Virus record (IMG/VR): IMGVR_UViG_3300037839_000874
Coordinates: 1-43,368 of that record
DNA: 43,368 bases
Reading direction: 5' to 3' (one strand)
DNA from: a virus
A model generated the notes under the pieces. It did not search any database and was not told the origin of the DNA. It saw only the letters and a program-made list of their open reading frames with translations. Positions within the stretch are counted from its first letter, which is position 1; every line of letters begins with the position of its first letter. A program made the translations under genes and the position numbers. Below, piece after piece: positions 6,467-43,134 of this stretch.

Positions 6467-9400
6467 TAGATATTATCTCCTAAATCGTATTTGCTTTCAT
6501 CATATTGTAAAGCTGTAATTTTATGTCTATGTTCTTCTAATTCTTCTATATCTAGAATTCTAAATTTTTGAGTTTTATCAATATAAGGCTCTAAAGCTGC
6601 GCCTGGATACTTATTAGTTGGATCGCTAAGACCAAAAACACTCGGACTTTTATTATAATCATAATTGTCTGGATTAATTTCTATTGTCCAAACTGTGTTT
6701 TGAATTAAAGTATGCTGTATATTATCTAATCGTTGCCCTGCAAAATCTATTCTTGTATATCCTTGAAAACTTCCAGTATTTTGCATAGTTGCATACAAAC
6801 CAAATACGCTAGTATCAGTTGGATTCAGCACTGTATAATCTGTTGCATATTTTATTGTTTGAACTTGTTTTCTCCTTAGAACAGACGAATATCCACTTGG
6901 CATAGACGTATTTTGAGGAGCCTCAGAAAGAGTTTTGAAAATTAAATTTCCAGTTTCTGTTCCAATTTCAATATTTCCTGCAGGTGTTAGAACATTAAAA
7001 TTGCAACCATTAATAGCAGGTAAAAATCCAGAAATATCTTCATATTTTATATCTAGAATAGCATAATTAGTCTCTAATTCATAAGTTCGTCCACCTAATA
7101 TTTTATTTTGTCTATTTTGATCTTGAATATATACAATATCTCCTGGTTTTAAATACATAGCAGGTAAACTTGTTTCAAAACTAACTAGTTCTGATTCTAA
7201 ATTCTCTGATAATAACGTCCATTTACCTAGCCTAGCAGCTTGACCTTCGCTTGTGCAACCAAAAGCACTAACTTCAATTTCTTTTATACCAAATCTAATT
7301 AAACCCTCTCTGCTCTCTACATATTTAACCGCTGGTTTATAAAAATTTTCTTTGTCATTATATCTTACAAGAGCCACATTTCTTCTGACTCTTTTACTTG
7401 TATTACTATAAGTAAATTCTCCTTCTTTAACATTACTATTATTAAAGATATATAAAGGTTCTTTTGGTCTATCTTGAGATGTGAATATTAGTCCTGCGCT
7501 ATAAAAAACTATTGCTCTGAAAATGCTAGCCATATCATTAAGGACTTTGTAAGCATCTTCTCTTGTGCTAATTAATACATTAGCTGTGAACCTTGGTTCT
7601 AATCCACCTTTTGAGTCGCTCACTAACTCATCACAATATTGAGATATCTCATATAAGGTCCATTTATCTGTTAGATTTGGATCAATATATCTTCCTAATC
7701 CATATCGGTCATTCGTAACTAAATCATAAAAGCACCAAGCAGGATTATCTGTCCAGCCTAGATTAAAATTACCGTCCCAACTTCCATCATAAGTTTTAGA
7801 ATAAGGATCATAATTAGAAGGAATTTTAACTTTCAATAATCTTGCATCATATGACCTTTGAGGAATACTTGTAAAAAATCTAGAATCAAATGTAGTTATT
7901 ATTCCAGCAGTATTAGGCAAACTCAAATAATCGTCATATATTTCAGTGATTGAATCAATACTACTTTTTACAACAATATTAATATCAACGCTTTCTATAT
8001 AGACTGGTTCAACTTCTATTTCCCATCCAATTGTATTAGAATTTATATACCTATTCAAACCACTCCATTCAAAGGTTTCAATAAATTGTCCTTGATTTAA
8101 TTTTCCAGCTATCACTAATGTAGCGTAGTCTCTAGCTTCTCCAGATAATAATCTTTGTTTTTTATCTATATAATCTTGCAAAGCTGATCTAAAATCTGTT
8201 TGTAATCTATTTACATCTCTTGCATAAGATGTATAAAGTTTACCATCATGCCTATGGGAATAAATTGTCCTTCCATTAATAAATTCTGTATAATTAGCTG
8301 GTTGTCTTTGATAACCATCTGGCCCAGATCCAGCTCCTCCGCCTGGAGAATTTGGTGGCCAAAATAAAGCTAATACATCATTTTCTATACTATATACAGT
8401 ATTATAATATGTTTCTTCACTTATAGTAAATGTACCGCCAGAAGATCCTGTATAATTTGGATTTGGGATTAGTGTTACTTCTTTGCCTTTATTAGGAGTA
8501 TAATCTATCCTTTTTAAATAAAGATTTAATTGCATATCTAAACGATCTGTTCGACCTGATACAGAATTTGCTGCAGCTTGATCAGCTGTATCCCATATAG
8601 TTAAATCAACTATACTTTTAAATAAACTTAAAATCTTTATACTAAGTCTTAATCCATATAAATTTTTTGTTAAAATAACAATAGACTTTTTATAGGTTTT
8701 AGATGTTCCATCTTCAAAAACTCTTTTTCCAAAAAGCTTTGTTCCAACAACTTTTGTACTAGTTAATCTTTTTGGTAATTTAACTCCAGAAGATAAAATT
8801 GTTTCAGGTCCGTCTTGTTTTAAAACTAATTTATCTATTTGTTGGCCATTATTTATTTTACGAGAATAAAAAGGTTCTTCTAATTTTATATTTCCTAGTT
8901 CTGTTAAATTTGCATGCCTTGGAGCAGAATCTGCATAATCGTAGCTCATTCTAACAAATTCAAAATTAAAACTTCCATTAAGCGGATAGGAGTTATCTGC
9001 TAAAGGTATTTCATTCCAATAAATAGATCTAACTTGAGGATTCTTTCCTGCATATTTAACTAATTTAACTCCATTTTTATAGCCTGTATCTCCTTTTGCA
9101 TATCCTGGATTTGGAATGATTTCATAATCTACTATTCCCTCTATAGGGCCTTCTCCAAGAATGTCTAACACAGATATATTAGTTAAAGAAGTAATACCAA
9201 TATCTTTACTATCTTTAAGCTTATTACCATATCTATAACCATAACTATCAATTTTTATATCTGCTCCTGCTCTAGAGACTAGAGTACCACAATTTTTTGG
9301 AACAACAGTAGATGTTAGAGCCCAGTTTGCATAATACGAGGTAAATTTGCCAAACTTCCAATTACCCCAGCCGAACTCCTTATGGTATGCTCCCTGATAC

Positions 9401-28165: not shown

Positions 28166-28194
28166 ATATTACCGCTGTTTTAAGTTTATGTCAA
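28166..28194 (-). promoter_or_regulatory. Leaderless sigma70 promoter for the gene at 27374-28159
   Basis: On the minus strand TTGACA (28189-28194) is followed by a 17-bp spacer, TAATAT (28166-28171), 6 nt and the ATG at 28159. The -35 is a perfect consensus. Transcription should start at or within a base or two of the ATG, leaving no room for a Shine-Dalgarno. Confidence 0.75.
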
Positions 28195-29355
28195 CTCAAA
28201 TAGATAGAAATATTTAGATTCTTCCCAAAAAATAGGATCATCTATGGCTTTAATAGCTTTATTTTCGAAAGGTATGTCGTTAATATAGGCAGCTTTTGAG
28301 TTATAAATTTTGCCTTTGCTTATTGTTATTTTATTAGATTTATAAAGTAAGCTATCAATATTTCTGTCTTTTAATATTTCTAGATCTTTCTTCTCAGTTT
28401 TCACAGATCTTATAATTTGAGCATAATCCATATAATCTAGCTTAATACTCTTAACAAAATCTTCTGATAAAAACGTGGACAAGGCGAATGTTTTTCCTAA
28501 TTTTTTCAAGTCTTTTACAAATTCTATGCTATGATTTTGATCTAAATCATAAATGATCTGCGCGATGTTATCTTTATATTTATTTAAAATATCATATCTT
28601 ATGGGTTTTGAAGTAACTATTGAGCAATTATTTCTCTTGAGTTGCTCTTCTAAAACTCCTTCATTAAACTCGTAATCCATTCTCATAATCAATGAATTAA
28701 CTCCTAACTTAGAGATATCTGCAATTACGCTATTTGGAACGGATTCTATTAATCTTCTGCTATAATCTTCTCCAATATAATTTGTTTTTATATTGATTTT
28801 TTCCATGCCAAGAAACTCTAATATATAATTGGCTATTTGTATTGGATCTATTTCATTAATTGTTTTGGGAGATTCTTTAGCCGAATAACTTGGCTTTCTA
28901 TCTTTTTTACTTGCCTCCAGTGTTTTAACTTTATTTTTTGAACTAAAGTATGGTCCAGCATTTTCTGGTCTACTGTTTGAATATAAAGCTACTATAGGCT
29001 TATCATAATGACTCGCTACATGTACTCCAAAGCTATCTGCACCAAAATGTAGCATGCCTCTTTTTATAATATAAGCTGCTTGATTAATAGTAGTCTTACC
29101 TTGCAAATGATAACAGTTTTCTAAAGGTTTTTCATCTTTTCCACCAATTTGTACTATATGAATTTTTTTCTCTTGTAGTATAGGTACAAGTTGATTTATC
29201 ACTTCTTGCCAAAGATCATAGCTTTTAGAATCATATTTGCTGCATGGCTGAAATGATATATAATCATCAAATGGAATTGGGCAATATTTTTCATATATAG
29301 ATGGTTTATCTATTTTAAGTCCACAATTTAAAGCGTAAGTTTCAATTAAGTGCAT
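28186..29355 (-). CDS. Glycosyltransferase family 9-like, C-terminal half plus extra domain
   Basis: Residues ~30-150 of this 389-aa protein match the C-terminal nucleotide-sugar-binding half of family 9 (heptosyltransferase-like) enzymes: ISFQPCSKYDSKSYDLW, IGGKDE, LQGKTTINQAAYII and GADSFGVHVASHYDKPIVALY. The N-terminal half of the fold is missing here. It lies at the end of the upstream gene, which this one overlaps by 14 bp in a different frame. Residues ~185-389 are unrecognised; they may be a separate sugar or radical-SAM-unrelated TIM-like domain, with no clear motif. Together the two genes probably make a two-subunit or frameshift-joined transferase acting on virion or host glycans. 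The start is the ATG inside the upstream stop region. A sequencing error could also explain the split. Confidence 0.72.
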   Translation of the reverse strand: MHLIETYALNCGLKIDKPSIYEKYCPIPFDDYISFQPCSKYDSKSYDLWQEVINQLVPILQEKKIHIVQIGGKDEKPLENCYHLQGKTTINQAAYIIKRGMLHFGADSFGVHVASHYDKPIVALYSNSRPENAGPYFSSKNKVKTLEASKKDRKPSYSAKESPKTINEIDPIQIANYILEFLGMEKINIKTNYIGEDYSRRLIESVPNSVIADISKLGVNSLIMRMDYEFNEGVLEEQLKRNNCSIVTSKPIRYDILNKYKDNIAQIIYDLDQNHSIEFVKDLKKLGKTFALSTFLSEDFVKSIKLDYMDYAQIIRSVKTEKKDLEILKDRNIDSLLYKSNKITISKGKIYNSKAAYINDIPFENKAIKAIDDPIFWEESKYFYLFELT

Positions 29356-31261
29356 ATTTGTAATCCTTGTAAGCTATATTAGTTTTGCCATTATGAAGAT
29401 AAGTTAAAAATCTTTGTGTTTGAGAATATGGCAAGAAAGCTATCTCAAAGTATCCTTTGTGAGTTGAGATGCCTTCTAACCAAGTCAAGCTATCCATTTG
29501 AGAAATGTATTGTATAACTTTATGAATATGAGGATTTGCTTCCAAGATGTCAAAGTATTCTGGCTTCGTTGCCACATATAGATTATATGATGGATACTGT
29601 TCTTTAATAGACTTAAAAAGGCTTGTAGATAAGAATACATCTCCTATACTTTCTGGCATAACATATAATAATCTTTTACCATCATCATCTTTATCTAGCA
29701 AATCATCAAAAGCAATTTTTGGATTTTTGCTATTGTCTTGAAGAGCAACTTGACGAAAATAGTTTTCTATATCAACTCTTTTAGTTCCTTTTTCTATTTC
29801 TTTCATCCAGTATTTATAGCCTTCATCTTCTTTGTCCATATTGTTTGCTTTTAAGATATTCTTATATAAATGTAAAACCCATTCAGAATCGTCTTTAATA
29901 TCTGGCATAGCACAATATGCATCTTTTTCTTCTACTTCGAAAGAGTAGTTTTTATCTATTAAAGGAGAAGAGTCTATAAAGTCTTCTATAATTTTACCAA
30001 TCGTTTCTACTGAATAGTTTTTTACTGTCCATTCTCTTGCTTTTTTGCCGTAGTCTGATCTTTCTTCTTTAGACATGCTATAGACTTTTGATAGATTAAT
30101 TGCTATAGATTTTGGACATGTAGAAGCTTTAATGAACTCTGTTCCATGCTCTCTGTATTCATTCCATTCTAATGGAAGACTATATGCCTCTTGTTGGCAC
30201 ATCTCTTCTCCACAAGAGTAATTTGTAACTAAAGTTATCAGTTCGGTAAGCTTGGCTTCTTGTATTGGAATTTCTTGACCTCCGCTAGTAAATGGATGAC
30301 AATAAACATCCATTAAATTGTAGACCTCATTTAGACTTTCTTCAGTTACTCCTAAGCCTACATTAGTAGTAATTTGAGATTTTTTATTTCCACAGAATTC
30401 ACAATCTAAGTCTTGACCATTAAAATTTTTAACTTCATAATTACCGCATGCTTTGCATATATATGTAGTAAATATTTCCTTGGGGTCAATATTATATTCT
30501 TTTGCTAGCTTCATGATATTCCAACCTTCACCAAAATGAGTATGAAGCAATAGTCCAGAATTTTTTATATTATTTTCTTTTTTCCAGATAGCGTATCCTT
30601 CTAAAAGATTGGGAACGCTTTTTCTCAACTGATTTCTAAATACGAATCCAACAATAAATTTATCTTTATCTATCTTAAATTTAGATCTTAACTCTAATCT
30701 TTTATCATCAGAAATTCTATAAAAATTATCTGTATCTAATGCTCCATGAACAGTCTTGACATGGTTATGCCCTAACTTATGTAAGGCTTTTGTTGCAAAA
30801 TCGCTCCATATCCAATAATTTTTGACTTTGGGTGCGCATTTGACAGCTGATTCAAGGATAGGTAAAGAGTCTAAAGTCGTCCATATTACTGAGCTTATCT
30901 TATTAAACCAAGGCTTATCTATGGCGAAATCTACTCCCCAAATGTCTTGGACAGCGATATAAACATCTGGTTTTTCCTCTTTTATTATCTCGTCTAATAA
31001 ATGAGCTCCATAACTAGCCATTCTAGCTAAATGAGGATCTTTATTTAATTGCTCTACTTCTTGTTGCGAATTTGGAAGTGAACCGCAGCTTTTCCAAGGA
31101 GTCCTTTCTAATTGAGGATTTCCTTTCTGCATTCCGCAGCAATAATTTACTATATCATATTTACCAGTTTTATATAAATATTTGATAATAGCTTTAGAAT
31201 TTCTTCCAAAGCCAGTCTTCGCTAAAGAAAAATCAGATTGAAAGACTATCTTCTTACGCAT
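29342..31261 (-). CDS. Fused glycosyltransferase: GT4-like with zinc ribbon, DUF4214, and GT9 N-terminal half
   Basis: The protein has 639 residues. Residues ~1-440 are a GT-B, family 4-type transferase: an N-terminal FSLAKTGFGRNSKAI glycine motif, a VHGALDTDNF linker, and a C-terminal Glu pair in SGGQEIPIQEA (Glu330, Glu335). A Cys4 zinc ribbon (Cys269, Cys272, Cys287, Cys290) is inserted in the C-terminal Rossmann domain. Residues ~459-505 resemble DUF4214 (LYKNILKANN, GYKYWMKEIEKG). Residues 531-639 are the N-terminal half of a family 9 transferase (LLYVMPESIGDVFLSTSLFKSI); the fold then continues in the next gene in another frame. It lies 5 nt after the possible SSB gene and should be read from the same promoter. 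Substrate and acceptor are unknown. Confidence 0.78.
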   Translation of the reverse strand: MRKKIVFQSDFSLAKTGFGRNSKAIIKYLYKTGKYDIVNYCCGMQKGNPQLERTPWKSCGSLPNSQQEVEQLNKDPHLARMASYGAHLLDEIIKEEKPDVYIAVQDIWGVDFAIDKPWFNKISSVIWTTLDSLPILESAVKCAPKVKNYWIWSDFATKALHKLGHNHVKTVHGALDTDNFYRISDDKRLELRSKFKIDKDKFIVGFVFRNQLRKSVPNLLEGYAIWKKENNIKNSGLLLHTHFGEGWNIMKLAKEYNIDPKEIFTTYICKACGNYEVKNFNGQDLDCEFCGNKKSQITTNVGLGVTEESLNEVYNLMDVYCHPFTSGGQEIPIQEAKLTELITLVTNYSCGEEMCQQEAYSLPLEWNEYREHGTEFIKASTCPKSIAINLSKVYSMSKEERSDYGKKAREWTVKNYSVETIGKIIEDFIDSSPLIDKNYSFEVEEKDAYCAMPDIKDDSEWVLHLYKNILKANNMDKEDEGYKYWMKEIEKGTKRVDIENYFRQVALQDNSKNPKIAFDDLLDKDDDGKRLLYVMPESIGDVFLSTSLFKSIKEQYPSYNLYVATKPEYFDILEANPHIHKVIQYISQMDSLTWLEGISTHKGYFEIAFLPYSQTQRFLTYLHNGKTNIAYKDYKYALN

Positions 31262-31888: not shown

Positions 31889-34426
31889 TTATTTTTCTTT
31901 AATTTCTCCAAGTTTCATAAAGATTTTATGATCTTGAATTGATATCAAATCTGCGAATACAGTATCTTCACCTTTTTTCTTGCCTTTAACTATCACAATA
32001 TTACCTTCGTCTGGTAATATATTATTCATTTCTTTACATTCATCTATCTTGTCATTGAATATTAATGCAGTTAATTTAGAGCTCTCGTCTTGTACAGACA
32101 ATCTTAAATATCTGGTCTTCTTTGCGTTGTTGGCTATACCTAAATATTGTTCTTTAATTATGCCTATGAATATAACTGATAATCCTTCTGGTGCTTCATT
32201 GACTTCTCTTATGTTTAATAGATCTGGTTTCTGATCAGAAAAGATATCTTTTAAACTAGTATTATATGTATACCCTAAAAGTTTATTTTCATAATACCAA
32301 TTAGCAAATCTTTCATTTTTGCTATTTTGTTGATATATCTTCTTGTATGGATCGTAAGATTTTGTTATTGTTTCTAGCCTTGTCTCTTTGATTATAAGTT
32401 TACCTTTTTCATCTTTTGTATTGCTTAATAATTTAATAATTTTAAATAGATCATAATCAAACTTTTCTCCATACATCATGCAGTATTTTTGCTCATTTTG
32501 AGTTAATATATTCCATAGTTGAGCTTCTAATACTACCTTGCTCCTAGACTGTTTAAAATCCTCTAATGCTCCAGCTTGTATTAATGGAGATAGCACCCTT
32601 ATCGACAACTTCGCTTGTTGCCCAGACTTAAATACGTCAAACTTCGAAGCATATTTATTTCTAAAATCATTAAGTCTTTGAATAGACTTATCGCTAATTC
32701 CTTTAATAGATAATAAGCCGAACCTAATATCATCTCCTTCAACACTAAAGTCCATTTCTGATTTAATAATATGAGGTGGCAATAGTTTTATGTTAAATAA
32801 ATCCATTTCTTTATGAATCTTAGATATTTCATCTATAGGATCTGGCTCAAATCTAGTCATCCTTAATAAGGATAAGAAGAATTCTTTTGGATGCTTAAAT
32901 TTTAAATAAATTGTAATCGCTGCTAATGCTGCATAGCTTTGACTATGACTAGCATTGAATGAATAATTGGCAGAATCTTCTAGAATTTTCCATAGAGTTT
33001 CTCCAATCTCTTTCTCTAAATTATTTGATACACATTTCTTTTCGATCTTCTCTTTCCAAGCTTTGATTTCTTCGACTTTCTTTTTACCAACAATTCTCCT
33101 CAATATCTCGGCTTGATCTAAAGTAAAACCAATTTTATGTGCCATTTGCATTAATTGTTCTTGATAAAGAGCTAACCCTCCTGTTCTCTTCAATGTCTCA
33201 TCGAAAAATGGATGAACAGATTGATACTCTCCAGTCTCTACGTATTTAGCATATTGGTCAACGAATTGTAATGCACCTGGCCGAGCCAATGCTAATACCG
33301 CACTCAACTCTTCTAAATTTCTTGGTCTAACCTTTCTGCAAACTTTAAAATTCGTGTCTGCTTCGATTTGAAATAGGCCATGAGGACTTCGGAGGTCTTG
33401 TAATTGCTGGTAAATAAATACATCTTCTGTATTGATATCTTCTATCTTAGACTTAATCATAAGACATACATCATAGACTACCGAAACACTTCTTAATCCA
33501 AGCAAATCTAGCTTAACATTGAACTGACTTATATCATTCATATCGAAAGAACTTACCAGTTCCTTATCGGAAGATAATTCTAATGGACATGCTTCTGATA
33601 ATTTTTCGTGAGATATTTGAATGCCAGAAGGATGAACACCTTTATTTTTTATCAAATTTCTTAATTTTAAAGCTATATTATAAATCTCTTGATTTTGATC
33701 ACACCATTCTTTAAACTTTTCTACTTCGTTATAGGCTTCGGAAATATCTTTAACTTGACCGAACGTTTTTGGAATTAAACTACTAATATGAGTCATCTCG
33801 GTCTCATTTTTTTCCTCTACGATTTTACCACATTCTTTGATAAGAAGTTTTCCGCTTAAAGTATTGAATGTTAAAATTTTACTAATTCTATTTGGAAAGA
33901 CTTCATTTAAGAAATCTATGACCTTATGGCGATTGTAATAACAAATATCCAAATCCACATCGCACATTAAACTTCCATCAAGATATGTGATCCCATCAAC
34001 AACTTGTTTCTTTGCTCTAATCTTAGAGATAAATCTTTCGAAGTAAAGATTATGTTTAATTGGATCTATTTTAGTAACGCCTATCAAGAAAAGAATTAAA
34101 CTACCCGCTGCACTTCCTCTTCCTAGTCCAGTAGGAATTTCGCTTTCTTTACAGAAGTTAATAACTAACCATACTAGAATTATATAATCAATAAATCCTA
34201 GATCTTCTATAATCTCGAATTCATGATCTAATCGTTTTTTATACTCTGGTTTTTTAGGAAGATTATTGTAAGCTAGTTTTTTTAGAAAATCAGCATTAGA
34301 AACGTCTTCGGATAATCCTAGATTTCTTTTATGCTCTGCCTTGACTTTAAACTCTGGCAACCTTACTCCATAAAGTGGCAAGTTTATTTTTTTGAATGAA
34401 TTAACAAAATCAATCGTCTTCGTCAT
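31889..34426 (-). CDS. DNA polymerase III alpha-like catalytic subunit lacking the PHP domain
   Basis: This is the replicative C-family DNA polymerase of the phage (845 aa). The palm shows GRGSAAGS (residues 102-109) and CDVDLDI, with Asp158 and Asp160 as the likely catalytic pair; KLDLLGLRSVSVVYD supplies the third acidic residue. Fingers motifs follow: LYQEQLMQMAHKIGF, ILRRIVGKKK and FNASHSQSYAALA. A helix-hairpin-helix (SIKGISDKSIQRL) and a C-terminal OB-fold (~740-830) complete the core. The N-terminal PHP domain (~270 aa) of bacterial DnaE is absent. The protein starts exactly where that domain would end, and a PHP-like protein is encoded two genes upstream. Bacterial DnaE is ~1160 aa. 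It overlaps the preceding small gene by 17 bp. Confidence 0.95.
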   Translation of the reverse strand: MTKTIDFVNSFKKINLPLYGVRLPEFKVKAEHKRNLGLSEDVSNADFLKKLAYNNLPKKPEYKKRLDHEFEIIEDLGFIDYIILVWLVINFCKESEIPTGLGRGSAAGSLILFLIGVTKIDPIKHNLYFERFISKIRAKKQVVDGITYLDGSLMCDVDLDICYYNRHKVIDFLNEVFPNRISKILTFNTLSGKLLIKECGKIVEEKNETEMTHISSLIPKTFGQVKDISEAYNEVEKFKEWCDQNQEIYNIALKLRNLIKNKGVHPSGIQISHEKLSEACPLELSSDKELVSSFDMNDISQFNVKLDLLGLRSVSVVYDVCLMIKSKIEDINTEDVFIYQQLQDLRSPHGLFQIEADTNFKVCRKVRPRNLEELSAVLALARPGALQFVDQYAKYVETGEYQSVHPFFDETLKRTGGLALYQEQLMQMAHKIGFTLDQAEILRRIVGKKKVEEIKAWKEKIEKKCVSNNLEKEIGETLWKILEDSANYSFNASHSQSYAALAAITIYLKFKHPKEFFLSLLRMTRFEPDPIDEISKIHKEMDLFNIKLLPPHIIKSEMDFSVEGDDIRFGLLSIKGISDKSIQRLNDFRNKYASKFDVFKSGQQAKLSIRVLSPLIQAGALEDFKQSRSKVVLEAQLWNILTQNEQKYCMMYGEKFDYDLFKIIKLLSNTKDEKGKLIIKETRLETITKSYDPYKKIYQQNSKNERFANWYYENKLLGYTYNTSLKDIFSDQKPDLLNIREVNEAPEGLSVIFIGIIKEQYLGIANNAKKTRYLRLSVQDESSKLTALIFNDKIDECKEMNNILPDEGNIVIVKGKKKGEDTVFADLISIQDHKIFMKLGEIKEK

Positions 34427-34667
34427 CTTTACTTTTCTTTTTCCGCTTTTTATTTGATTTAAAATTGTTGATTGACTTATCTATATTTATTTGGAATTCA
34501 CTTAAGCCTTCTTTAAGAGCTCCAAAAGACTTCTCTTCATTATTCAAAGAATAAAATACGTCTGCTTTACTATTAGTCTTACCATGCTGGATGGTAATAA
34601 ATAAATAATCTATATTTTCTTTCTCTAGTTTACCTAGAATATCGTAGATGTTGTCCATTGATGCCAT
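34410..34667 (-). CDS. Small unrecognised protein with basic-acidic tail, before the polymerase gene
   Basis: This 85-aa protein is not recognised. The first ~65 residues could form a small alpha/beta domain. The end is strongly basic then acidic (KSNKKRKKKSKDDEDD), a disordered tail that could bind DNA or a partner protein. It is the first gene of a unit with the catalytic polymerase, which it overlaps by 17 bp, so it may be a polymerase accessory factor. A near-perfect leaderless promoter lies directly before the ATG, and there is no Shine-Dalgarno. The promoter, overlap and reading phase support it as a real gene. Confidence 0.72.
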   Translation of the reverse strand: MASMDNIYDILGKLEKENIDYLFITIQHGKTNSKADVFYSLNNEEKSFGALKEGLSEFQINIDKSINNFKSNKKRKKKSKDDEDD

Positions 34668-34674
34668 ATTGAGT

Positions 34675-34703
34675 ATTATATATTTCTATTAGGAAAAATG
34701 CAA
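34675..34703 (-). promoter_or_regulatory. Leaderless sigma70 promoter for the 85-aa protein and polymerase
   Basis: On the minus strand TTGCAT (34698-34703), a 17-bp spacer and a perfect TATAAT (34675-34680) lie 7 nt before the ATG at 34667. It occupies the 36-bp gap after the exonuclease gene. The predicted RNA start falls on the ATG. Confidence 0.72.
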
Positions 34704-35345
34704 TCAAATATTAACCATATGCTTGATTTTATTCCAGACTTTAAAATTTAGCTCTAAATCTGACAAAGCATTATGCAAAGAATCATAATCATGATTAATA
34801 TCTAGATCTTTTCCAGCTGCGGTCAAGTTCGTTCTGACATTCTTAACTCTAGTATGATATAATTTATACATATATTCTGGCAAAGATTCTTTTTTAGGAT
34901 CGAAAGCATTTGAAGTCTTTATTCCTTTGTAAATTAAATTTGTGTCTATAGCTTTAGAAAGAAAATCGTAAGGTTTCATATCCATGAATTTATAGTATTC
35001 ACTAAGTAAATATAAATCAAATCCTAATATATTATGGCCAATTATATAATCTGCGTTCTCTAACCAATCTCTAAGAGTAGGGAAAAATGCCTTTGGGTCA
35101 ATGCCATGCTTTTGTATATTTCTCGGATCGTATTTAGTTATTTTTGCGGCATCTTTACTTATCTTCAAATCTGTTTGCCATTTCAAATACGCATCTTTCC
35201 CATCGATAATATTATCGCCTTGACATTTAAGCATAGCTACTTGCCAAGGAATATTATGACAAAAATTAAGACAAAGATTTAACGTCTCGCAATCTACAAA
35301 AACTAAAGTTTTAGTTTTATCGAATCTTAATAAATGCTCATCCAT
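34704..35345 (-). CDS. DnaQ-type DEDDh 3'-5' exonuclease
   Basis: This 213-aa exonuclease is probably the proofreading subunit for the adjacent C-family polymerase. The motifs are in order: ExoI VFVDCETL (Asp18, Glu20), ExoII IIGHNILGFDLYLLS (Asp110), and ExoIII SLHNALSDLEL (His191, Asp196), which is the DEDDh type. The length is that of a stand-alone epsilon subunit core. It overlaps the PHP-like gene by 8 bp and lies between the two halves of the divided polymerase. This suggests that PHP-like protein, exonuclease and polymerase core act as one replicase complex. No ribonuclease-specific extension is visible. Confidence 0.9.
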   Translation of the reverse strand: MDEHLLRFDKTKTLVFVDCETLNLCLNFCHNIPWQVAMLKCQGDNIIDGKDAYLKWQTDLKISKDAAKITKYDPRNIQKHGIDPKAFFPTLRDWLENADYIIGHNILGFDLYLLSEYYKFMDMKPYDFLSKAIDTNLIYKGIKTSNAFDPKKESLPEYMYKLYHTRVKNVRTNLTAAGKDLDINHDYDSLHNALSDLELNFKVWNKIKHMVNI

Positions 35346-36099
35346 GATTTTGTTCTTTCCAGCTCTCTAAGCAGAATTCGTTACTAGACATATGTTCTAT
35401 TTCGGGCTTATTTAGTGTCGTTCTATTATTAATGCATCTAAAAGTTAAAAAACTTTTAAAGTCTTTTTTGTTCTTGTAATAGATACTTTTAGTATTAAAT
35501 GATTCAAGATCGTTTGATTTCGCATACTCAAGCATTTTACGCTTAACTAGAGGATCGAATATCAAAGAGTTGTCCTCAATAAAAATTGATGGTTTAAAAT
35601 TCTCTAAAAATGGGACACATTGATATCCTTTTAAACAGTTATTAAAAATGAAGTTATCATAGAATGGTAGAGCTATCTTTAAGCTATCGTTGAAGTGCTC
35701 TTTGAGAATATTCATATCTAATCTTGGAGTATAGTAAAATCCTTCAGTATTGGCCTTTGTCCACAACTTTATGAGTAGCTTATAGCCTTCGTCTCCATTT
35801 GCAAATAATATTACTTTATGATGTTTTTTAAGTTCTGGTTCACTTTTATTCAAATGGTCTTCACAAAATACAAATTTTATGCCAAATATTAAATCAATAT
35901 CAATTAATTTTAAGTTCTTGTAAGCCTGTAAAAAACCGCTAAAGCAATCTTCTACTAAAAACACTTTCTTAAGTTTATTGTCTTTGGCTATTTGAATAAT
36001 AGAATCTGGCCCATTATCTGTTTCGCTCTCTGGCTTAAGAGTTAATATACTCTTTCCTATGGAAAAATGACTTTTAAAAAGCGGAATAACATTGCTCAT
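35338..36099 (-). CDS. Stand-alone degenerate PHP domain of DNA polymerase III alpha
   Basis: The protein has 253 residues and corresponds to the N-terminal PHP domain of DnaE, made as a separate protein. Matching landmarks are FGIKFVFCED, HHKVILFANGDEGYKLLIKLW, GFYYTPRLDMNILKEHF and the terminal LNKPEIEHMSSNEFCLES, which parallels the PHP end of DnaE just before the palm. Metal-site residues of active PHP domains are missing: the early HxH is replaced (SHFSIGKS region) and the TDHG motif reads VEDC. It is therefore probably structural, perhaps holding the exonuclease to the polymerase, as PHP does in bacteria. It starts its own unit from a leaderless promoter and overlaps the exonuclease gene by 8 bp. 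Confidence 0.82.
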   Translation of the reverse strand: MSNVIPLFKSHFSIGKSILTLKPESETDNGPDSIIQIAKDNKLKKVFLVEDCFSGFLQAYKNLKLIDIDLIFGIKFVFCEDHLNKSEPELKKHHKVILFANGDEGYKLLIKLWTKANTEGFYYTPRLDMNILKEHFNDSLKIALPFYDNFIFNNCLKGYQCVPFLENFKPSIFIEDNSLIFDPLVKRKMLEYAKSNDLESFNTKSIYYKNKKDFKSFLTFRCINNRTTLNKPEIEHMSSNEFCLESWKEQNHG

Positions 36100-36105
36100 T
36101 GTCTA

Positions 36106-36134
36106 TTTATATCTGATATTATGATCTAGGTCAA
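36106..36134 (-). promoter_or_regulatory. Leaderless sigma70 promoter for the PHP-like and exonuclease genes
   Basis: On the minus strand TTGACC (36129-36134), a 17-bp spacer and TATAAA (36106-36111) lie 6 nt before the ATG at 36099. The -35 covers the stop codon of the upstream nuclease gene. No Shine-Dalgarno fits in the leader. Confidence 0.72.
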
Positions 36135-37090
36135 GTCAAATCGTCAAAGGCATCTTTTGATTTTTGATTAATCGAATTATTATTATGTCTTGGGCATCCA
36201 GTATATTGCCTTTGCTCTACTGTAAATCCTTCAACATCTTTAAATTCCCCAGTAAAATTTGATTCTACTATTTCTCCAGCATCATTAAGTTTAACATGAT
36301 AACTAAATGGGTCTTTATATGGACATCTCCAATTGCCTATACTACACATCCACTTATTCTTAGGATTATCTACGGCAAAATTTGATTGAGCGCTATCTTT
36401 ATCAAAATTATTAATGTATTCATTAACATACTCTAAATAGTATTCGAACCCTTTAATTTCATCCTCATCAAATTGTAGCTCTTGAATTGGTTGCTTAGGG
36501 AATCTTAAGAATAGAAACTTAATAATGGGCTTTAATTTAGGCCATAATTTTTTACTCGCTAGACTATACATCATGGCTTGTATGTTCGCTTCAAGGTCAT
36601 CACCCCTAAACTTGTACTTCGAGCTCTTGTAGTCGATTATATGCATTTCTTTTTTGATTTTAATAGGCTTATCTATGAAACCTCGGATATGATATTTAGG
36701 CTTATCGTTTTTAATTTCAAATGCATACTCTGGTTCTATTATCTTTCCGTTTTCACCAAAGAAGTCGTTCTTTAATCCGACTAATATCATTTCATCTAAT
36801 AGCTTATAATTGCTTTCATTGAGATTGACTTTAGCTGATAATTTTTTAACGAGTTTAGATACACCCTTATCTCCATCTATAGAGTTACTCTTGATGATAC
36901 TCTTATAGTTTTTATAATGCCTTTTATTTAAAAGAAGTTCAAAGATTGTATGGCATATTGTTCCCCTATCGCTTCCATCATTAGACTTTTGTGGTGTCTT
37001 AATATGATAATTGTTCCAGTAAACCCAAGAACAAGTTTCAAGAGTTTTAATTCTAGACGCAGATAATATTTTTAAAGATTGTTTTTCCAT
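36131..37090 (-). CDS. PD-(D/E)XK nuclease of the RecB/Cas4/AddB type with iron-sulfur cysteines
   Basis: In this 319-aa protein the nuclease core shows RGTICHTIFE (His47), RGFIDKP (Asp140), HIIDYKSSK (Asp153, Lys155) and QAMMYSLA (Gln171, Tyr175), the full RecB-family motif set. Four cysteines, Cys20 before the core and Cys249, Cys256 and Cys299 after it, match the arrangement that holds a 4Fe-4S cluster in AddB and Cas4. The role is probably DNA end processing for phage recombination with RecA, or host DNA breakdown. No CRISPR array or cas gene is nearby, so a Cas4 adaptation role is unlikely. It overlaps the primase gene by 19 bp and ends the DnaB-ThyX-primase unit. Confidence 0.87.
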   Translation of the reverse strand: MEKQSLKILSASRIKTLETCSWVYWNNYHIKTPQKSNDGSDRGTICHTIFELLLNKRHYKNYKSIIKSNSIDGDKGVSKLVKKLSAKVNLNESNYKLLDEMILVGLKNDFFGENGKIIEPEYAFEIKNDKPKYHIRGFIDKPIKIKKEMHIIDYKSSKYKFRGDDLEANIQAMMYSLASKKLWPKLKPIIKFLFLRFPKQPIQELQFDEDEIKGFEYYLEYVNEYINNFDKDSAQSNFAVDNPKNKWMCSIGNWRCPYKDPFSYHVKLNDAGEIVESNFTGEFKDVEGFTVEQRQYTGCPRHNNNSINQKSKDAFDDLT

Positions 37091-37980
37091 TGTAAGATCT
37101 CCTCTTTGTTCATTTCGCCAAAGTCTTTTTTAATTGGTAAGGCGATTTGTATTTGGTTTCTATCAAAATGTTTTAATAATTTCTCTTTAGCTTTTTCTGA
37201 TGCTAAATTACCTGCTTTATTCTTAAACTCATCATTATTAAATGATATATAGATTTTGTTTGGATTTAAGACTAATAAAGTATTTAAAATGCTAACACTT
37301 AGAGCTAGGCCAAAAGTGACAATCACATTTTTAACTCCAGCTTCCCATAGACTTAACATATCTCCTATACTCTCAACGATAATAACTTCTTTGCTCTCGG
37401 AAAGGATCTTTGCGTTAACTTGCAAAGGGTAACGCCAATTGATCTTATCTCCTATCAATTTCCATTTTGGACAAAACTTTTCGTTTCTATTTAGAATATC
37501 TCTGCCAGCAACTCCAATTAACTTGTCTTGTTTATCTAGAATTGGGAAAATATATCTGCCCTTCATTCTGCCTTCGGTTAATATTCCTCCATTAAAAATG
37601 TTCATAGTCTCTTCTGAAATATTTCTTTTCTTCCAGAAGGAGTGATCTTTTATTAATTTATCAAGAACATCATTTGAATAGCACTTTACTTGTTTAATCT
37701 GAGGTTTTCTGTAGACTGTATATGATGCTTCAGTTTGAACTTTCTTGCTTATCCATTCTTTAGCTTCTGTATTATTCGGAAGATTTAAAGTCATTCTTAC
37801 TAAATCTTGAAGATTTCCAGTTGTATTCTCTTTATAATCTATCCATTTGCCACTATCTTTATATATTACTAATACGTTCTCATTATCTGAATCTCTATAT
37901 AGAGGTTTTGTTCTGTATTCTTTTAAATACTCTTTCAAATCATACCCTAAATTAGATAAGATTTCTTTTATGTTTTCCAT
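37072..37980 (-). CDS. DnaG-like DNA primase (TOPRIM) with degenerate zinc-binding domain
   Basis: In this 302-aa primase, the N-terminal ~65 residues keep the shape of a CHC2 zinc-binding domain (NVLVIYKDSGKWIDYKENTTGNLQDLVRM) but lack its cysteines and histidine. The RNA polymerase core is short. The TOPRIM domain has IVESIGDML (Glu203, Asp207) and IYISFNNDEF, where the usual D-x-D reads N248-N-D250, so one metal ligand is replaced by Asn. The gene lies between thyX and the nuclease and overlaps both (13 bp and 19 bp). It would supply primers for the C-family polymerase with the DnaB helicase. The family call is firm; catalysis with the altered motif is untested. Confidence 0.85.
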   Translation of the reverse strand: MENIKEILSNLGYDLKEYLKEYRTKPLYRDSDNENVLVIYKDSGKWIDYKENTTGNLQDLVRMTLNLPNNTEAKEWISKKVQTEASYTVYRKPQIKQVKCYSNDVLDKLIKDHSFWKKRNISEETMNIFNGGILTEGRMKGRYIFPILDKQDKLIGVAGRDILNRNEKFCPKWKLIGDKINWRYPLQVNAKILSESKEVIIVESIGDMLSLWEAGVKNVIVTFGLALSVSILNTLLVLNPNKIYISFNNDEFKNKAGNLASEKAKEKLLKHFDRNQIQIALPIKKDFGEMNKEEILQWKNNL

Positions 37981-38624
37981 TCTAATGCCTCACTAATAAT
38001 TGGAAACTCTTTAATAAATATCTTTTTGCATCTTTCGGCAATTAGTCTATGTTCTTTTTGAGTATTTTGTTGCGTTCTTAATTCAAGATAATGTATCCAG
38101 CTTCTCAATGAGCCTTTCATATACATGGTCGTTTGAGTTGTTAAAGGTAATATCATTCTAGCAACCTCTTTAGCTACTCCATTTTCTATCATTGAATCAT
38201 AACAATGCTGAGAAAGCGATAAAGATTCTACAAGAAGTTCGCTAACTTTATCATATGCATCTGTATTAGTTGGCATAAGGTGCTCTCCTACTTGCCTGTT
38301 CTTATCTCCTTGCAAGCGAAGTTCGATATCTTCAAATTCATTTGCTATACTATACCTTTGACTGAACTCTTGAAAGCTAAATGATCTATGTCTAAGAATT
38401 TGCGCTGCAATTCCGCGGCTTGTTTTAATTTCAACGCACATATCAACTAATTCAAATGGACTCCAATGCTTGTGATTAATTAAGAATTTTAAAAGCTTAG
38501 GTGCAGTTTCTACATTCATTTGATTAGAAGGATTACTAACTCTAGCACAAAATGCAACCAGATCTTCTGCATTTTTCATGCCTTTGATTTCTGGTTTTGT
38601 TATTGATATTAGTTCTACGTTCAT
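37968..38624 (-). CDS. thyX: Flavin-dependent thymidylate synthase ThyX
   Basis: This 218-aa enzyme makes dTMP from dUMP using FAD, NADPH and methylenetetrahydrofolate. The ThyX signature RHRxxSx6SxR is read as RHRSFSFQEFSQR, with Arg78-His79-Arg80, Ser88 and Arg90. The length is normal for the family. The protein also has the expected start region (ARVSNP) and late MKGSLRSWIHYLELR, which includes the active-site Ser and Arg. Its start overlaps the dnaB stop by ATGA and its end overlaps the primase by 13 bp, so thymidylate supply is tied to replication. Phages in AT-rich genomes often carry it to raise the dTTP supply. Confidence 0.97.
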   Translation of the reverse strand: MNVELISITKPEIKGMKNAEDLVAFCARVSNPSNQMNVETAPKLLKFLINHKHWSPFELVDMCVEIKTSRGIAAQILRHRSFSFQEFSQRYSIANEFEDIELRLQGDKNRQVGEHLMPTNTDAYDKVSELLVESLSLSQHCYDSMIENGVAKEVARMILPLTTQTTMYMKGSLRSWIHYLELRTQQNTQKEHRLIAERCKKIFIKEFPIISEALEWKT

Positions 38625-40111
38625 ATCAGTTCTCCATCTTGGTTATCTCCACCTTGATCAAAATTAAGTCTTTCATTTTCTGCATCAACTATTTCTCTCA
38701 AAGTTCCTCTTTCTTCTACGTTAAAATTACCAACGTCAAAATTTATATAATTATTAAAATATTTAAATTCACTTTGACCGACTCTTCTACGAACTAAATC
38801 ATGATGTCCTGTACCTTCTCTGCCTTGAAATCTTGTCTTAATAGCTATCAATTTATGAGTTCCAAATTGTTCTCCATCGACTTGAATTTCATCTTGAGTT
38901 TTCCTTCTAAAAATTCCAACAAATGAAGCGAACCATTGCATTCTATCAGATAGGGAAATTGCAGAACTATCGTCCGTCACTTGACTTGAATTACGATTAA
39001 AATTTTCTCCAGTTCGATTTAATTGCATAGCGGTAATAACTGGACACTTTATTTCTTCGGATATTCTTTTCAGTTTATCAATTTTATCACCAATAGCTTG
39101 ATGCTCTGCCCAATTTTGACCTACTTTTTCTCCAGTCAATTTTATATAATCATAAGCTATTAAAGCTTGGTTACCTCTTCCAACTTTTGTATAATACCAT
39201 CTTCTAATAATAGAGGATATTTCATCTATACTCTTATTTGAAACATGATAATGATAATGAGTCATATTTTTGACCTTTGGCCAAGCCTCTCTCACCTTTT
39301 GTATCATTTCTGGATTTTTTCTCCAATTGCCTGTTTCTATATACCAAAGTGGAACACTAGAAATACTTGCGACTAATCTCATTTGAGTATCTAAAGTACT
39401 CATTTCTGTATCAAGAATAAGAGCTTTGGTATTTTTGTTATGTACATTAGCAGTTTTATAACATATATCATTAAGCCATGTGCTTTTACCTTGTCCTGGC
39501 CTACTTACTATAGAATATATATTCCCTTGTTTTAAGCCTCCATACATATTATTAAAATTGTTATATGGAGTCTTTAATCCAGTCTCTTGTCTGGGATTAT
39601 TACCAATCTCTTCAATTATACTCTCCATCTCTTCGAAAAGGTTAACTGGTTCGCCCTCTAGGTAATATTGAGTTACCTTATTATTATAAATCTCATCTAC
39701 TTTAGATACTATTTTATCTATTCCATCTTCTGCATTGTCTTTAACATACTTCTTGACATTTTCAGCTGTTTCAAACAACTCTCTTCTTACTTTTAGTTTA
39801 CTTAATTCCTGACAAGCACTTATAGTCCCTTGAGGATTGATTTGAGTCATGGCTAAGGAATCTATATAAGAAAATATATCAATCTCATCTTTAAAAGATA
39901 TGCCAAGATTTTTAATCTTTTGAGCTAATAATACTTTATCTATTTTATTATTCTTATTCAATTCATCTTTGATGCAAGAGAATATTGTATTGTGGACATC
40001 ATTATAAAAGTCTTTTTCAGATATAAATCTGGCTACATCAAAAAACACTTCTGAATTTCTAATTAGACCACCTAGAACATGACGTTCTACTTGAACCGAG
40101 TATATGGGCAT
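38621..40111 (-). CDS. dnaB: Replicative DNA helicase DnaB
   Basis: This 496-aa helicase has the two-domain DnaB layout. The N-terminal helical domain (residues ~1-100, beginning VERHVLGGLIRN) is followed by a linker and a RecA-like motor with Walker A RPGQGKST (204-211). LILDTEMS follows, then ALIAYDYIKL (Walker B) and the VITAMQLNRTGE motif with its Gln/Arg finger residues. It unwinds the fork and recruits primase, which is encoded two genes downstream. It heads the dnaB-thyX-primase-nuclease unit, whose genes all overlap, and it is preceded by a strong leaderless promoter. The extreme C-terminus is acidic and Gln/Asn-rich. No loader gene is recognised in the window. Confidence 0.96.
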   Translation of the reverse strand: MPIYSVQVERHVLGGLIRNSEVFFDVARFISEKDFYNDVHNTIFSCIKDELNKNNKIDKVLLAQKIKNLGISFKDEIDIFSYIDSLAMTQINPQGTISACQELSKLKVRRELFETAENVKKYVKDNAEDGIDKIVSKVDEIYNNKVTQYYLEGEPVNLFEEMESIIEEIGNNPRQETGLKTPYNNFNNMYGGLKQGNIYSIVSRPGQGKSTWLNDICYKTANVHNKNTKALILDTEMSTLDTQMRLVASISSVPLWYIETGNWRKNPEMIQKVREAWPKVKNMTHYHYHVSNKSIDEISSIIRRWYYTKVGRGNQALIAYDYIKLTGEKVGQNWAEHQAIGDKIDKLKRISEEIKCPVITAMQLNRTGENFNRNSSQVTDDSSAISLSDRMQWFASFVGIFRRKTQDEIQVDGEQFGTHKLIAIKTRFQGREGTGHHDLVRRRVGQSEFKYFNNYINFDVGNFNVEERGTLREIVDAENERLNFDQGGDNQDGELI

Positions 40112-40147: not shown

Positions 40148-40396
40148 CTAATCTTTTTTCTTCTTTTTAGGTTTTGATAAATCTGTAATTGATTTGATTG
40201 TGCAGTCTATATTTAGAGTATTAATAGCTTCTGCCCAATAATTAACGTATTGCTGGAGACCCATAGCATTGAGTTGATTATCAAATTTTGTCATCACTTG
40301 AGGATCTCCTTCGGAATTAAAATTAAATAAAATAAATCCACCGAAAGAGTTTTCATTAAGTGCCTCCAATAATTGTTTTGGAAAATCTTTTTGCAC
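40148..40396 (-). CDS. Small unrecognised protein with poly-Lys tail, before dnaB
   Basis: This 82-aa protein is not recognised. It is a small alpha/beta protein (FGGFILFNFNSEGDPQV) ending in KPKKKKKD, a basic tail that could touch DNA. No ATG fits, so I use the GTG at 40396; the ATG at 40400 is out of frame and leads to a 14-codon frame. There is no Shine-Dalgarno. A TTGACA lies at 40433-40438 with only a poor -10 (TTTAGT at 18 bp), and TGTAAA lies 7 nt before the GTG. Either could be a weak promoter. Its place between the nuclease and dnaB suggests a replication accessory factor. Confidence 0.62.
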   Translation of the reverse strand: MQKDFPKQLLEALNENSFGGFILFNFNSEGDPQVMTKFDNQLNAMGLQQYVNYWAEAINTLNIDCTIKSITDLSKPKKKKKD

Positions 40397-40409: not shown

Positions 40410-40829
40410 CTAAAAAATACTTATATTGAAATTGTCAAGGAAAAACTTAGCAGACAATAGCTTTAAATCTTTTTCATAAATCTCTAAAAGTTTAAAATTA
40501 TTTTTCTCTAGCCATTCCTCTTTCTTGCAGTCTCTTTTTATACTTTTTAAGTAATTCATTCTAGAGTGATTATGAAAAAATTCATTAAAGTTGTCATGCT
40601 GTGCGCCGTTTACTTCTATTGCTATTCGTTTTGTAGCGTTCAATATATCCACCTTCATAAGTGAGCCATAGACTGGGAATTCTTCATATACAATATGATG
40701 TTTCCAATATTGTTGAAAGAATTTTTTAGTGTTAAACTGAATTTTACTTCTGCTGGGCTTATCCCAATCTATTAAATATTTTGAGACGTTTTTATTGACT
40801 AGCTTTCCATTCAAGCTCAATAATCTCAT
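40410..40829 (-). CDS. Small PD-(D/E)XK endonuclease, Vsr/resolvase-like
   Basis: This 139-aa protein has Glu50 in VYEEFPV, Asp61 in MKVDIL and Glu72-Val-Asn in IAIEVNGAQH, an acidic triad in the spacing of Vsr-type and DUF559-like nucleases. A helix follows (YLKSIKRDCKKEEWLEKNNF) and then the strand KLLEI, also as in that group. Similar small phage nucleases are sometimes proposed as Holliday-junction resolvases, which would fit the overlap with recA (4 bp). It could also be a free-standing homing-type nuclease, although no DNA-binding repeat or HNH or GIY-YIG motif is present. Confidence 0.72.
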   Translation of the reverse strand: MRLLSLNGKLVNKNVSKYLIDWDKPSRSKIQFNTKKFFQQYWKHHIVYEEFPVYGSLMKVDILNATKRIAIEVNGAQHDNFNEFFHNHSRMNYLKSIKRDCKKEEWLEKNNFKLLEIYEKDLKLLSAKFFLDNFNISIF

Positions 40830-41971: not shown

Positions 41972-42302
41972 TTAAAAATTCCTTTAATGTTTTAACTTTC
42001 TTGTTTATCGTTTTATCATTTCCTATTTTAGTACTCTCTAAATGATATGATATTTTTATATCTTTGTCAACATTTAATGAAGATTTTTCTTTTAATAGAT
42101 ATTTTTTGCCTTCAAAAGATAACAACCACTCTAAAGATTTAATAGGTTTCTTTTTAAGATTAAACCAAAAATTACAATTTGGCTCAAATTGTATTAATTT
42201 TTTTGCTTGATTTATCTCGTATCCCCATGGTATATTTTTTGAAACTACAAATTTTAGTATTATATAACGACATAATTTTGCTCCAGATATTTGATTGCTC
42301 AT
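41958..42302 (-). CDS. Unrecognised 114-aa protein overlapping the GT17 gene
   Basis: I do not recognise this protein. It is Lys/Ile/Asn-rich with a central aromatic stretch (CNFWFNLKKKPIKSLEWLLSF) and a charged end, and has no membrane segment or signal peptide. It overlaps the upstream glycosyltransferase by 119 bp and recA by 14 bp. The first overlap is unusually long. Its frame stays open for several codons before the ATG, so a real frameshift, a sequencing error, or a later non-ATG start are all possible. No clear Shine-Dalgarno or good promoter lies before the ATG. The non-overlapping part reads like normal coding sequence for this genome. Confidence 0.62.
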   Translation of the reverse strand: MSNQISGAKLCRYIILKFVVSKNIPWGYEINQAKKLIQFEPNCNFWFNLKKKPIKSLEWLLSFEGKKYLLKEKSSLNVDKDIKISYHLESTKIGNDKTINKKVKTLKEFLNGKT

Positions 42303-43134
42303 AAGTAAATATAAGTCTAGCGTATTTATCTTTATTTTTCAAGACATATTTTGGACAATTATTTTCATTTAATTTTATTCTATTATATGTATCTTCTTCA
42401 TGGCCAAAATTTGATTGACCATTATAAATCCTTTTTTTAATGCTTTCTAGATCATTATTAGGCCATCTGTTGTACTCTTGATGAGAATAGGAACTAATTT
42501 TAAATATTATATTTTCTATAGAACTTACAAATGAGTAGTGCCATCCAGCATTTAAAATCGTAATATTAGCTTTTTGTTTAATCCTTAATTCCTGCATTGA
42601 AATTGTATTCTCTTTTTTAGTTATTATAACGCTAGTGCTTTTTGTATTATTTGCTGATATATTGTTCAGAGCATATCTAAAATTACTTAACTCCAAACGA
42701 ACATACTTATTATTATTTTTATATATTTCACAGAAAGCTTTAATTACCGACTGTTTTTTAGGAATTTCGTCTAAATCAGATAATATGATCATATCAGTAT
42801 TTTGAGCACCAATAATACCATCTGCAATTTTATTTCTTTGATAGGTTTCAAAAGACCAAGGGCTCTGGGATCTAATCCAGTCTTGATTCTTTATGTAGAT
42901 GATTTTTGTTTTAAATTTCTCAAATCTTTTCTCGTCTAGTAAGAACCCTTTATTTTTTTTACTAAAAGTTGAGTTTGATTCAAATATAACAAAATAATCC
43001 ACTACGTCTTTGAGTTCATTGATTCTTATCTCTAATAGATCGTTCTCATTGAAGAACAAAAAACAATCGTATATTATGATATTTTGTTTATTTTTAAAGT
43101 AAAAGAATTGATTTTTAAGATGATCTAATATCAC
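42184..43134 (-). CDS. Glycosyltransferase family 17-like protein
   Basis: The protein has 316 residues. It matches family 17 (beta-1,4-N-acetylglucosaminyltransferase-like) proteins: IYDCFLFFNENDLLEIRINELKDVVDYFVIFES near the N-terminus, the Trp-rich SQSPWSFETYQRNKIADG, and the D-x-D motif LSDLDEIP. These are followed by the conserved LNAGWHYSF segment. The start is a GTG, with 18 residues before the family's usual beginning and no good Shine-Dalgarno; another rare start further in is possible. The family part ends near CPKYVLKNKDKY, and the last ~45 residues overlap the next gene in another frame. With gmd upstream it probably belongs to a glycan-modifying cluster for virion or host surface sugars. 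The acceptor is unknown. Confidence 0.85.
   Translation of the reverse strand: MILDHLKNQFFYFKNKQNIIIYDCFLFFNENDLLEIRINELKDVVDYFVIFESNSTFSKKNKGFLLDEKRFEKFKTKIIYIKNQDWIRSQSPWSFETYQRNKIADGIIGAQNTDMIILSDLDEIPKKQSVIKAFCEIYKNNNKYVRLELSNFRYALNNISANNTKSTSVIITKKENTISMQELRIKQKANITILNAGWHYSFVSSIENIIFKISSYSHQEYNRWPNNDLESIKKRIYNGQSNFGHEEDTYNRIKLNENNCPKYVLKNKDKYARLIFTYEQSNIWSKIMSLYNTKICSFKKYTMGIRDKSSKKINTI

Follow-up and report, generated by a model that had tools for sequence, protein, structure and literature searches.

Why bacterial replicases retain the PHP domain after its catalytic site has been lost is a standing question, and it is raised again by one locus in a metagenomic virus record (IMG/VR IMGVR_UViG_3300037839_000874), whose 43,368 bases are referred to here as the window. 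This locus contains a gene for a PHP-like protein and another for a DnaE-type catalytic polymerase, and between them lie genes for a DEDDh (DnaQ-type) exonuclease and for a small protein of 85 amino acids. The arrangement had been put forward in the original prediction, and its four open reading frames (ORFs) were confirmed at the positions given in Table 1. The genes of the block are transcribed in the order helicase, ThyX, primase, PD-(D/E)XK nuclease, PHP-like protein, exonuclease, 85-residue protein and polymerase, with overlaps of 8 nucleotides between the PHP and exonuclease genes and of 17 between the small gene and that of the polymerase. We consider it fairly probable that a clade of uncultured tailed phages replicates with this enzyme and that it works as a non-covalent DNA polymerase III (Pol III) core, in which the PHP would be a separate dead subunit that docks on the polymerase and holds the exonuclease.

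Placed side by side, the PHP protein and the polymerase make up one DnaE: the former matches positions 15-250 of the NCBIfam model NF004226 (1146 positions) and the latter 280-1049. In Pfam the polymerase matched DNA_pol3_alpha (6.3e-57), the finger domain (1.5e-30) and HHH_6 (1.4e-18), with only 0.041 for the OB-fold, and its profile aligned in the PDB to residues 285-895 of E. coli DnaE (4e-81). As this match begins at 285 and the Pfam palm model at residue 57 of the protein, the N-terminus corresponds to the linker between PHP and palm, and judged from these alignments the cut is located before the linker. In the original prediction the PHP part ended with the PHP of DnaE and the catalytic protein began at the palm region; the PHP part indeed corresponds to the DnaE PHP, while the polymerase starts about 30-40 residues earlier than the palm. 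The motifs DxDxD and KxDxLGLR were found in 324 and 323, respectively, of the 325 complete polymerase copies (repeated contigs included). Palm, fingers, helix-hairpin-helix (HhH) domains and catalytic aspartates place the enzyme in the C family (DnaE), in which PHP, palm, thumb and fingers are described as parts of one polypeptide (PMC3666897), an organization that is not found here. A PolC origin, suggested by the order PHP, exonuclease, polymerase and by the PolC match of the exonuclease, was rejected, the nine PDB matches of the polymerase profile at E <= 0.001 being all DnaE and none PolC. Compared with Thermus DnaE, the palm also contains (window 33970-34020) an insertion of ~14 residues before the catalytic aspartates, which the family conserves (KIRAKKQ...YLDGSLM).

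Like all the structures predicted here, the PHP protein was modelled as a single chain (predicted local distance difference test, pLDDT, 83.3; predicted template modelling score, pTM, 0.84). The whole of the model could be superposed on residues 3-249 of E. coli DnaE (Z 20.8-21.0) and on residues 5-262 of the Thermus enzyme (Z 21.6), with ~230 residues aligned at a root-mean-square deviation of 2.9-3.4 A. DnaE PHP domains rank first among its matches, and it also aligns to the PHP-epsilon chimera 4gx8/4gx9. As modelled, the protein is a complete DnaE PHP fold. An active PHP exonuclease has nine metal ligands, HHDHEH[C/H]DH (PMC12926913), and in an alignment with active PHPs none of the nine was kept in any of the 26 family sequences included. 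The ligand columns can be considered validated because the E. coli row, R H D F D H G D R, reproduces the residues of Table 1 in PMC3666897. The loss of the HxH and TDHG metal residues noted in the original prediction is thus more complete than had been stated. Furthermore, the former ligand positions 9, 16, 75 and 95 were always Lys or Arg (67 of 67 sequences), and basic residues replacing the metals have been reported for dead PHP domains (PMC3666897). Judged by these residues, the subunit is catalytically dead.

Thirty-eight loci were retrieved in a first scan of IMG/VR seeded with the PHP protein, and the replication block kept its order in them as far as the contigs extend. Four further scans were started from alignments, and the best 80 matches were taken from each of 361 (PHP), 110 (small protein), 265 (exonuclease) and 304 (polymerase). 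Among the 340 loci pooled, many of them repeated contigs, 311 had the order PHP-exonuclease-small gene-polymerase, 16 had no detected small gene, one had a polymerase broken in two and 12 missed at least one core gene. Counting by the sequence of the PHP gene left 114 distinct loci: 99 with all four genes, 10 without the small gene, one with a twice-cut polymerase and four truncated at contig ends. Separate genes for PHP, exonuclease and polymerase, in unchanged order, are thus shared by 110 of the 114, and the same separate genes were found in three out of three divergent contigs from metagenome-assembled genomes (MAGs; 42-44% PHP identity). No fused PHP-polymerase appeared among the 114, in scans that, being seeded with this family, would not surface remote fused relatives. 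The expectation that other phage loci would share the split order was therefore borne out, and the possibility, conceded in the original prediction, that relatives encode one intact DnaE and the split is a sequence error was looked for and did not hold. The three MAG contigs were binned to three different phyla and for this reason do not name the host.

The metagenomic origin of the virus record speaks for an assembly error or for gene decay as the cause of the split, an explanation that we find scarcely credible given that the same split recurs in relatives from many metagenomes and that the ratio of nonsynonymous to synonymous substitutions (dN/dS) is far below 1 for both halves; a sequencing error or a pseudogene was ruled out on the same grounds. 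By the Nei-Gojobori count, with up to 4000 random pairs per gene and only those with dS 0.1-1 kept, median dN/dS was 0.054 for the PHP (169 pairs), 0.042 for the exonuclease (169), 0.035 for the polymerase (196) and 0.256 for the small gene (569), the last figure being noisy. By this measure the PHP is under strong purifying selection. That the halves are joined into one chain by trans-splicing, an intein or ribosome bypass is very improbable: the ORFs are complete with their own starts, in every complete relative at least the exonuclease gene separates the halves, and none of the proteins matched an intein family in the Pfam scan at E <= 1, on which account inteins and trans-splicing were discarded. 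In locus L266 the catalytic polymerase itself lies in two ORFs (3726-5504 and 5532-6701) with overlapping profile matches (13-580 and 503-855); either the polymerase has been split again or its middle part has been duplicated.

The exonuclease had no match in the Pfam scan, and was recognized by PHROG 192, 'DNA polymerase exonuclease subunit' (2.5e-20), and by the NCBIfam epsilon model (1e-8); the only significant PDB match of its profile was of PolC type, the T. maritima PolC exonuclease 2p1j (7.2e-4). The motifs DxE, HNxxxFD and HxAxxD are all present in 109 of 110 distinct relatives, and D18, E20, D110, H191 and D196 are invariant (20 of 20), the complete DEDDh set.

Whether the split enzyme is the replicase was examined in the 12 large relatives (91-172 kb). 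Each of them had a single PF07733 match, in a frame of ~860 residues, and a single PF02811 match, in another frame of ~250-270 residues, and in none of these sequences, possibly genome fragments, was a family A (PolA) or family B (PolB) polymerase detected. As a single DnaE-type polymerase accompanied by a single PHP, and with no alternative detected, the split enzyme is probably the replicase of these phages, as far as gene content can tell. Isolated phages gave no tblastn match to the exonuclease and only distant matches to the helicase (~22% identity among the matches listed), so that no close isolate was found.

In the assembly that we propose, the polymerase chain, with its catalytic motifs intact, would synthesize DNA. 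The PHP subunit would dock back on it, roughly at the site of the fused domain in bacterial DnaE, stabilizing the polymerase, and would hold the separate exonuclease close to the primer end, where it would perform the proofreading otherwise done by an active PHP; the 85-residue protein would be an optional accessory. An isolated E. coli PHP fragment (residues 1-270) is reported to be soluble and to bind epsilon (PMC3642679). The original prediction had already proposed a reassembled replicase with a dead PHP as scaffold for the exonuclease. The split, the dead PHP, the intact exonuclease, the conserved order and the single detected polymerase of the large relatives all agree with it, while the scaffold step is weakened by the short C-terminus of the exonuclease, and that the enzyme was 'reassembled' in the course of evolution is something that we infer. 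Docking of the PHP on the polymerase in trans is more likely than presentation of the exonuclease by the PHP. As to the most far-reaching reading, in which a free, obligate and dead PHP scaffold bridges polymerase and proofreader in a three-chain C-family replicase of a widespread phage clade, we see the chances as even.

Several observations weigh against the scaffold. In E. coli epsilon the catalytic domain comprises residues 1-180 and the tail beyond it wraps around the PHP (PMC3642679); the exonuclease described here ends 17 residues past the last catalytic aspartate, D196, and has no such long C-terminal PHP-binding tail, so that any docking on the PHP must differ from that of epsilon. 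In about half of the relatives PHP and exonuclease are separated by additional genes, which weakens the argument from a tight coupling of the two. Neither a beta-clamp domain 3 in the 12 large relatives nor a convincingly conserved clamp-binding motif in the clade sequences was found, and hence the canonical clamp-exonuclease-PHP geometry is not established; the clamp may be supplied by the host, be of another type or lie outside the fragments. In favour of docking, conservation along the PHP exceeds its mean (3.06 bits) in blocks 11-20 (4.03 bits) and 221-240 (3.5-3.6 bits), and within them residues 13-15 and 226-234 have low model confidence in the isolated chain. This is a hint of a docking surface that would be ordered only in the complex; low confidence in these loops can also stem from a shallow alignment.

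The missing tail and the inserted genes also favour a reading in which the PHP merely completes the polymerase fold and the exonuclease is positioned by the polymerase, a clamp or the small protein, and mutations at the PHP site of E. coli, which reduce polymerase stability and activity (PMC3666897), point to a structural role of its own for this domain. We judge it unlikely, although it deserves to be kept in view, as all nine ligands have been lost alongside an exonuclease gene, as in bacteria that use DnaQ with the PHP, where loss of the ligands is reported to correlate with a separate DnaQ (PMC3666897). Besides, the split PHPs of actinophages (see below) retain their ligands, and PHP and exonuclease remain close within the same gene block. 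Clearly less probable is that the free PHP has been repurposed, for example in binding parts of the host Pol III, and that the phage polymerase works without any PHP. A free domain without catalytic site could certainly be re-used, but the whole DnaE PHP fold has been kept under strong purifying selection together with its position in the gene block, and the PHP is described as nearly universal in C-family polymerases (PMC3919608).

Among known enzymes, the E. coli Pol III core (alpha-epsilon-theta) has the same DnaE-type catalytic region, a degenerate PHP and a separate DEDDh exonuclease. Its PHP keeps four of the nine ligands, against none in the clade, where the PHP is moreover a separate gene product and the exonuclease does without the long PHP-binding tail. 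Other polymerase splits were sought in 16 phage records. PHP and catalytic parts are also separate genes in Gordonia phage Sienna (gp64/65/66), Microbacterium phage Rachella (gp56/57) and Arthrobacter phage Wollypog (gp56-59), with small genes between them in Sienna and Wollypog, and these parts match PHROGs 7513 and 11165. Unlike those of the clade, these PHPs keep nine of nine ligands, no exonuclease gene is annotated at the junction and the cut falls after the linker instead of before it. The polymerase of Rossellomorea phage phiT1 is broken within the catalytic region and that of Alicyclobacillus phage KKP_3916 into several pieces. In a tree of 25 rows the polymerases of Sienna, Rachella and Wollypog group within the fused enzymes of actinophages (100/100) and the clade forms a separate branch (100/100), indicating that the PHP has been cut free more than once; the attachment of the clade had values of only 47/24 at the base.

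A dead PHP fused to the polymerase, in place of the free one of the clade, is found in the polymerase III of Pbunavirus LBL3 and Wifcevirus FEC19, and just upstream of the fused enzyme Pseudomonas phage LBL3 encodes an epsilon-like exonuclease of PHROG 192, the same as that of the clade. The T4-related phages 25 and 44RR have a replicase in two pieces as well, gp43A/43B, but of family B; the pieces from phage 25 co-purify and have activity, a precedent for a replicase that assembles from separate chains, and the available text of that report mentions neither a PHP nor an interposed exonuclease gene (PMC2988022). In Gram-positive PolC the PHP, exonuclease and polymerase regions follow a similar rough order, but the exonuclease is inserted in the PHP, whereas the PHP of the clade is contiguous and matches DnaE best. 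The intein-split DnaE of cyanobacteria has intein halves at a junction that in the clade is occupied by the exonuclease gene. Phage polymerase splits, including PHP/polymerase splits in actinophage annotation, were thus already known, and what is new is that the PHP is both free and dead, that a DnaQ-type exonuclease is interposed and that the arrangement is conserved across a large uncultured clade; no paper describing a split PHP/DnaE in phages was found in searches of an open-access library.

A domain that has been freed and yet kept, with a proofreader beside it, makes it possible to separate a purely structural role, a role as landing pad for the exonuclease and a combination of both by mixing three proteins. 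If the three-chain core is real, the PHP need not be covalently linked to the polymerase, and its structural role could be tested by including or omitting one protein. The actinophages, with split PHPs that have all their ligands and no exonuclease annotated at the junction, provide a matched natural comparison.

The PHP-exonuclease junction also bears on a possible origin of the split. Among 111 distinct PHP proteins the gap to the exonuclease is <=20 nucleotides in 55, 300-700 in 50, more than 700 in five and otherwise in one. This is an insertion hotspot, with inserts from several unrelated families (e.g. L010:8751-9196, L012:8147-8614, L268, L257 and L252), some of them endonuclease-like, those of L268 and L257 being labelled HNH and LAGLIDADG by eye. 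In Wollypog a NUMOD4/HNH endonuclease gene lies between the polymerase halves, and homing endonucleases are reported to split phage genes whose products reassemble, such as nrdA of phage Aeh1 (PMC2988022). By analogy, an origin of the split by endonuclease insertion is plausible. A gene for IMPDH/GMP reductase is located between PHP and exonuclease in the MAG contig L360.

The small gene, separated from that of the exonuclease by 1-3 nucleotides in most relatives, was detected in 100 of the 110 distinct loci with a full set of PHP, exonuclease and polymerase, and not in the remaining 10 nor in the three MAG loci, from which the core seems to work without it. Its model shows a helix, a beta-hairpin and a long helix (pLDDT 83.3, pTM 0.53), with only chance matches and none at E <= 0.001 among PDB folds, and nothing firm was obtained in Pfam, PHROG, NCBIfam or PDB profile searches. 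We also considered that it might be the missing tail of the exonuclease, an idea weakened by its patchy detection and by the fact that the exonuclease is not longer where the small gene was undetected (212 residues in 14 of 14 loci, repeated contigs included). By eye, an 82-residue protein upstream of the helicase (window 40148-40396) has a hairpin-plus-helix pattern resembling this protein.

Table 1. Genes of the replication block in the window and the basis of their assignment
Feature	Position	Strand	Basis
Stand-alone degenerate DnaE-type PHP subunit, 253 aa	35338-36099	(-)	Pfam PHP 9e-12 and predicted fold
DEDDh (DnaQ-type) 3'-5' exonuclease, 213 aa	34704-35345	(-)	PHROG 192 and motifs
Small helix-hairpin-helix protein, 85 aa, not in every relative	34410-34667	(-)	Single-chain model, no family match
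DnaE catalytic subunit without PHP, 845 aa, with linker, palm, thumb, fingers, HhH and an OB-like end	31889-34426	(-)	Pfam
Conserved downstream gene, 194 aa	31267-31851	(-)	Follows polymerase in first-scan relatives where contig reaches
PD-(D/E)XK nuclease upstream of PHP	36131-37090	(-)	Pfam PDDEXK_1 2.6e-15; PHROG 69 exonuclease; order kept in relatives
Primase	37072-37980	(-)	Pfam and PHROG matches; same order in relatives
ThyX	37968-38624	(-)	Pfam and PHROG matches; same order in relatives
DnaB-like helicase	38621-40111	(-)	Pfam and PHROG matches; same order in relatives

The suggestion that each part has its own promoter unit was not supported: 45 promoter-like sites were counted against 46.4 +/- 6.9 in shuffles, and the upstream regions inspected had no consistent element. 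The gene overlaps in the window and the short gap between exonuclease and small gene in most relatives also speak against it. The 194-residue protein downstream of the polymerase had no Pfam, PHROG or NCBIfam match and is possibly, by position only, a single-strand-binding protein. In L361 (14893-17358) and L362 (11673-14084) the gene directly downstream of the polymerase is Clp-like ATPase by eye. A further protein inside the replication block (window 40410-40829) has weak similarity to the phage homing endonuclease PHROG 9084 (2.1e-5), and a gene that resembles it by eye precedes the helicase in the MAG contigs L360-L362. After the replication block there are two large genes (window 28186-31261), sugar-transfer-like by eye, and the window also contains a glycosyltransferase of family 17 (42184-43134; 6.1e-34).

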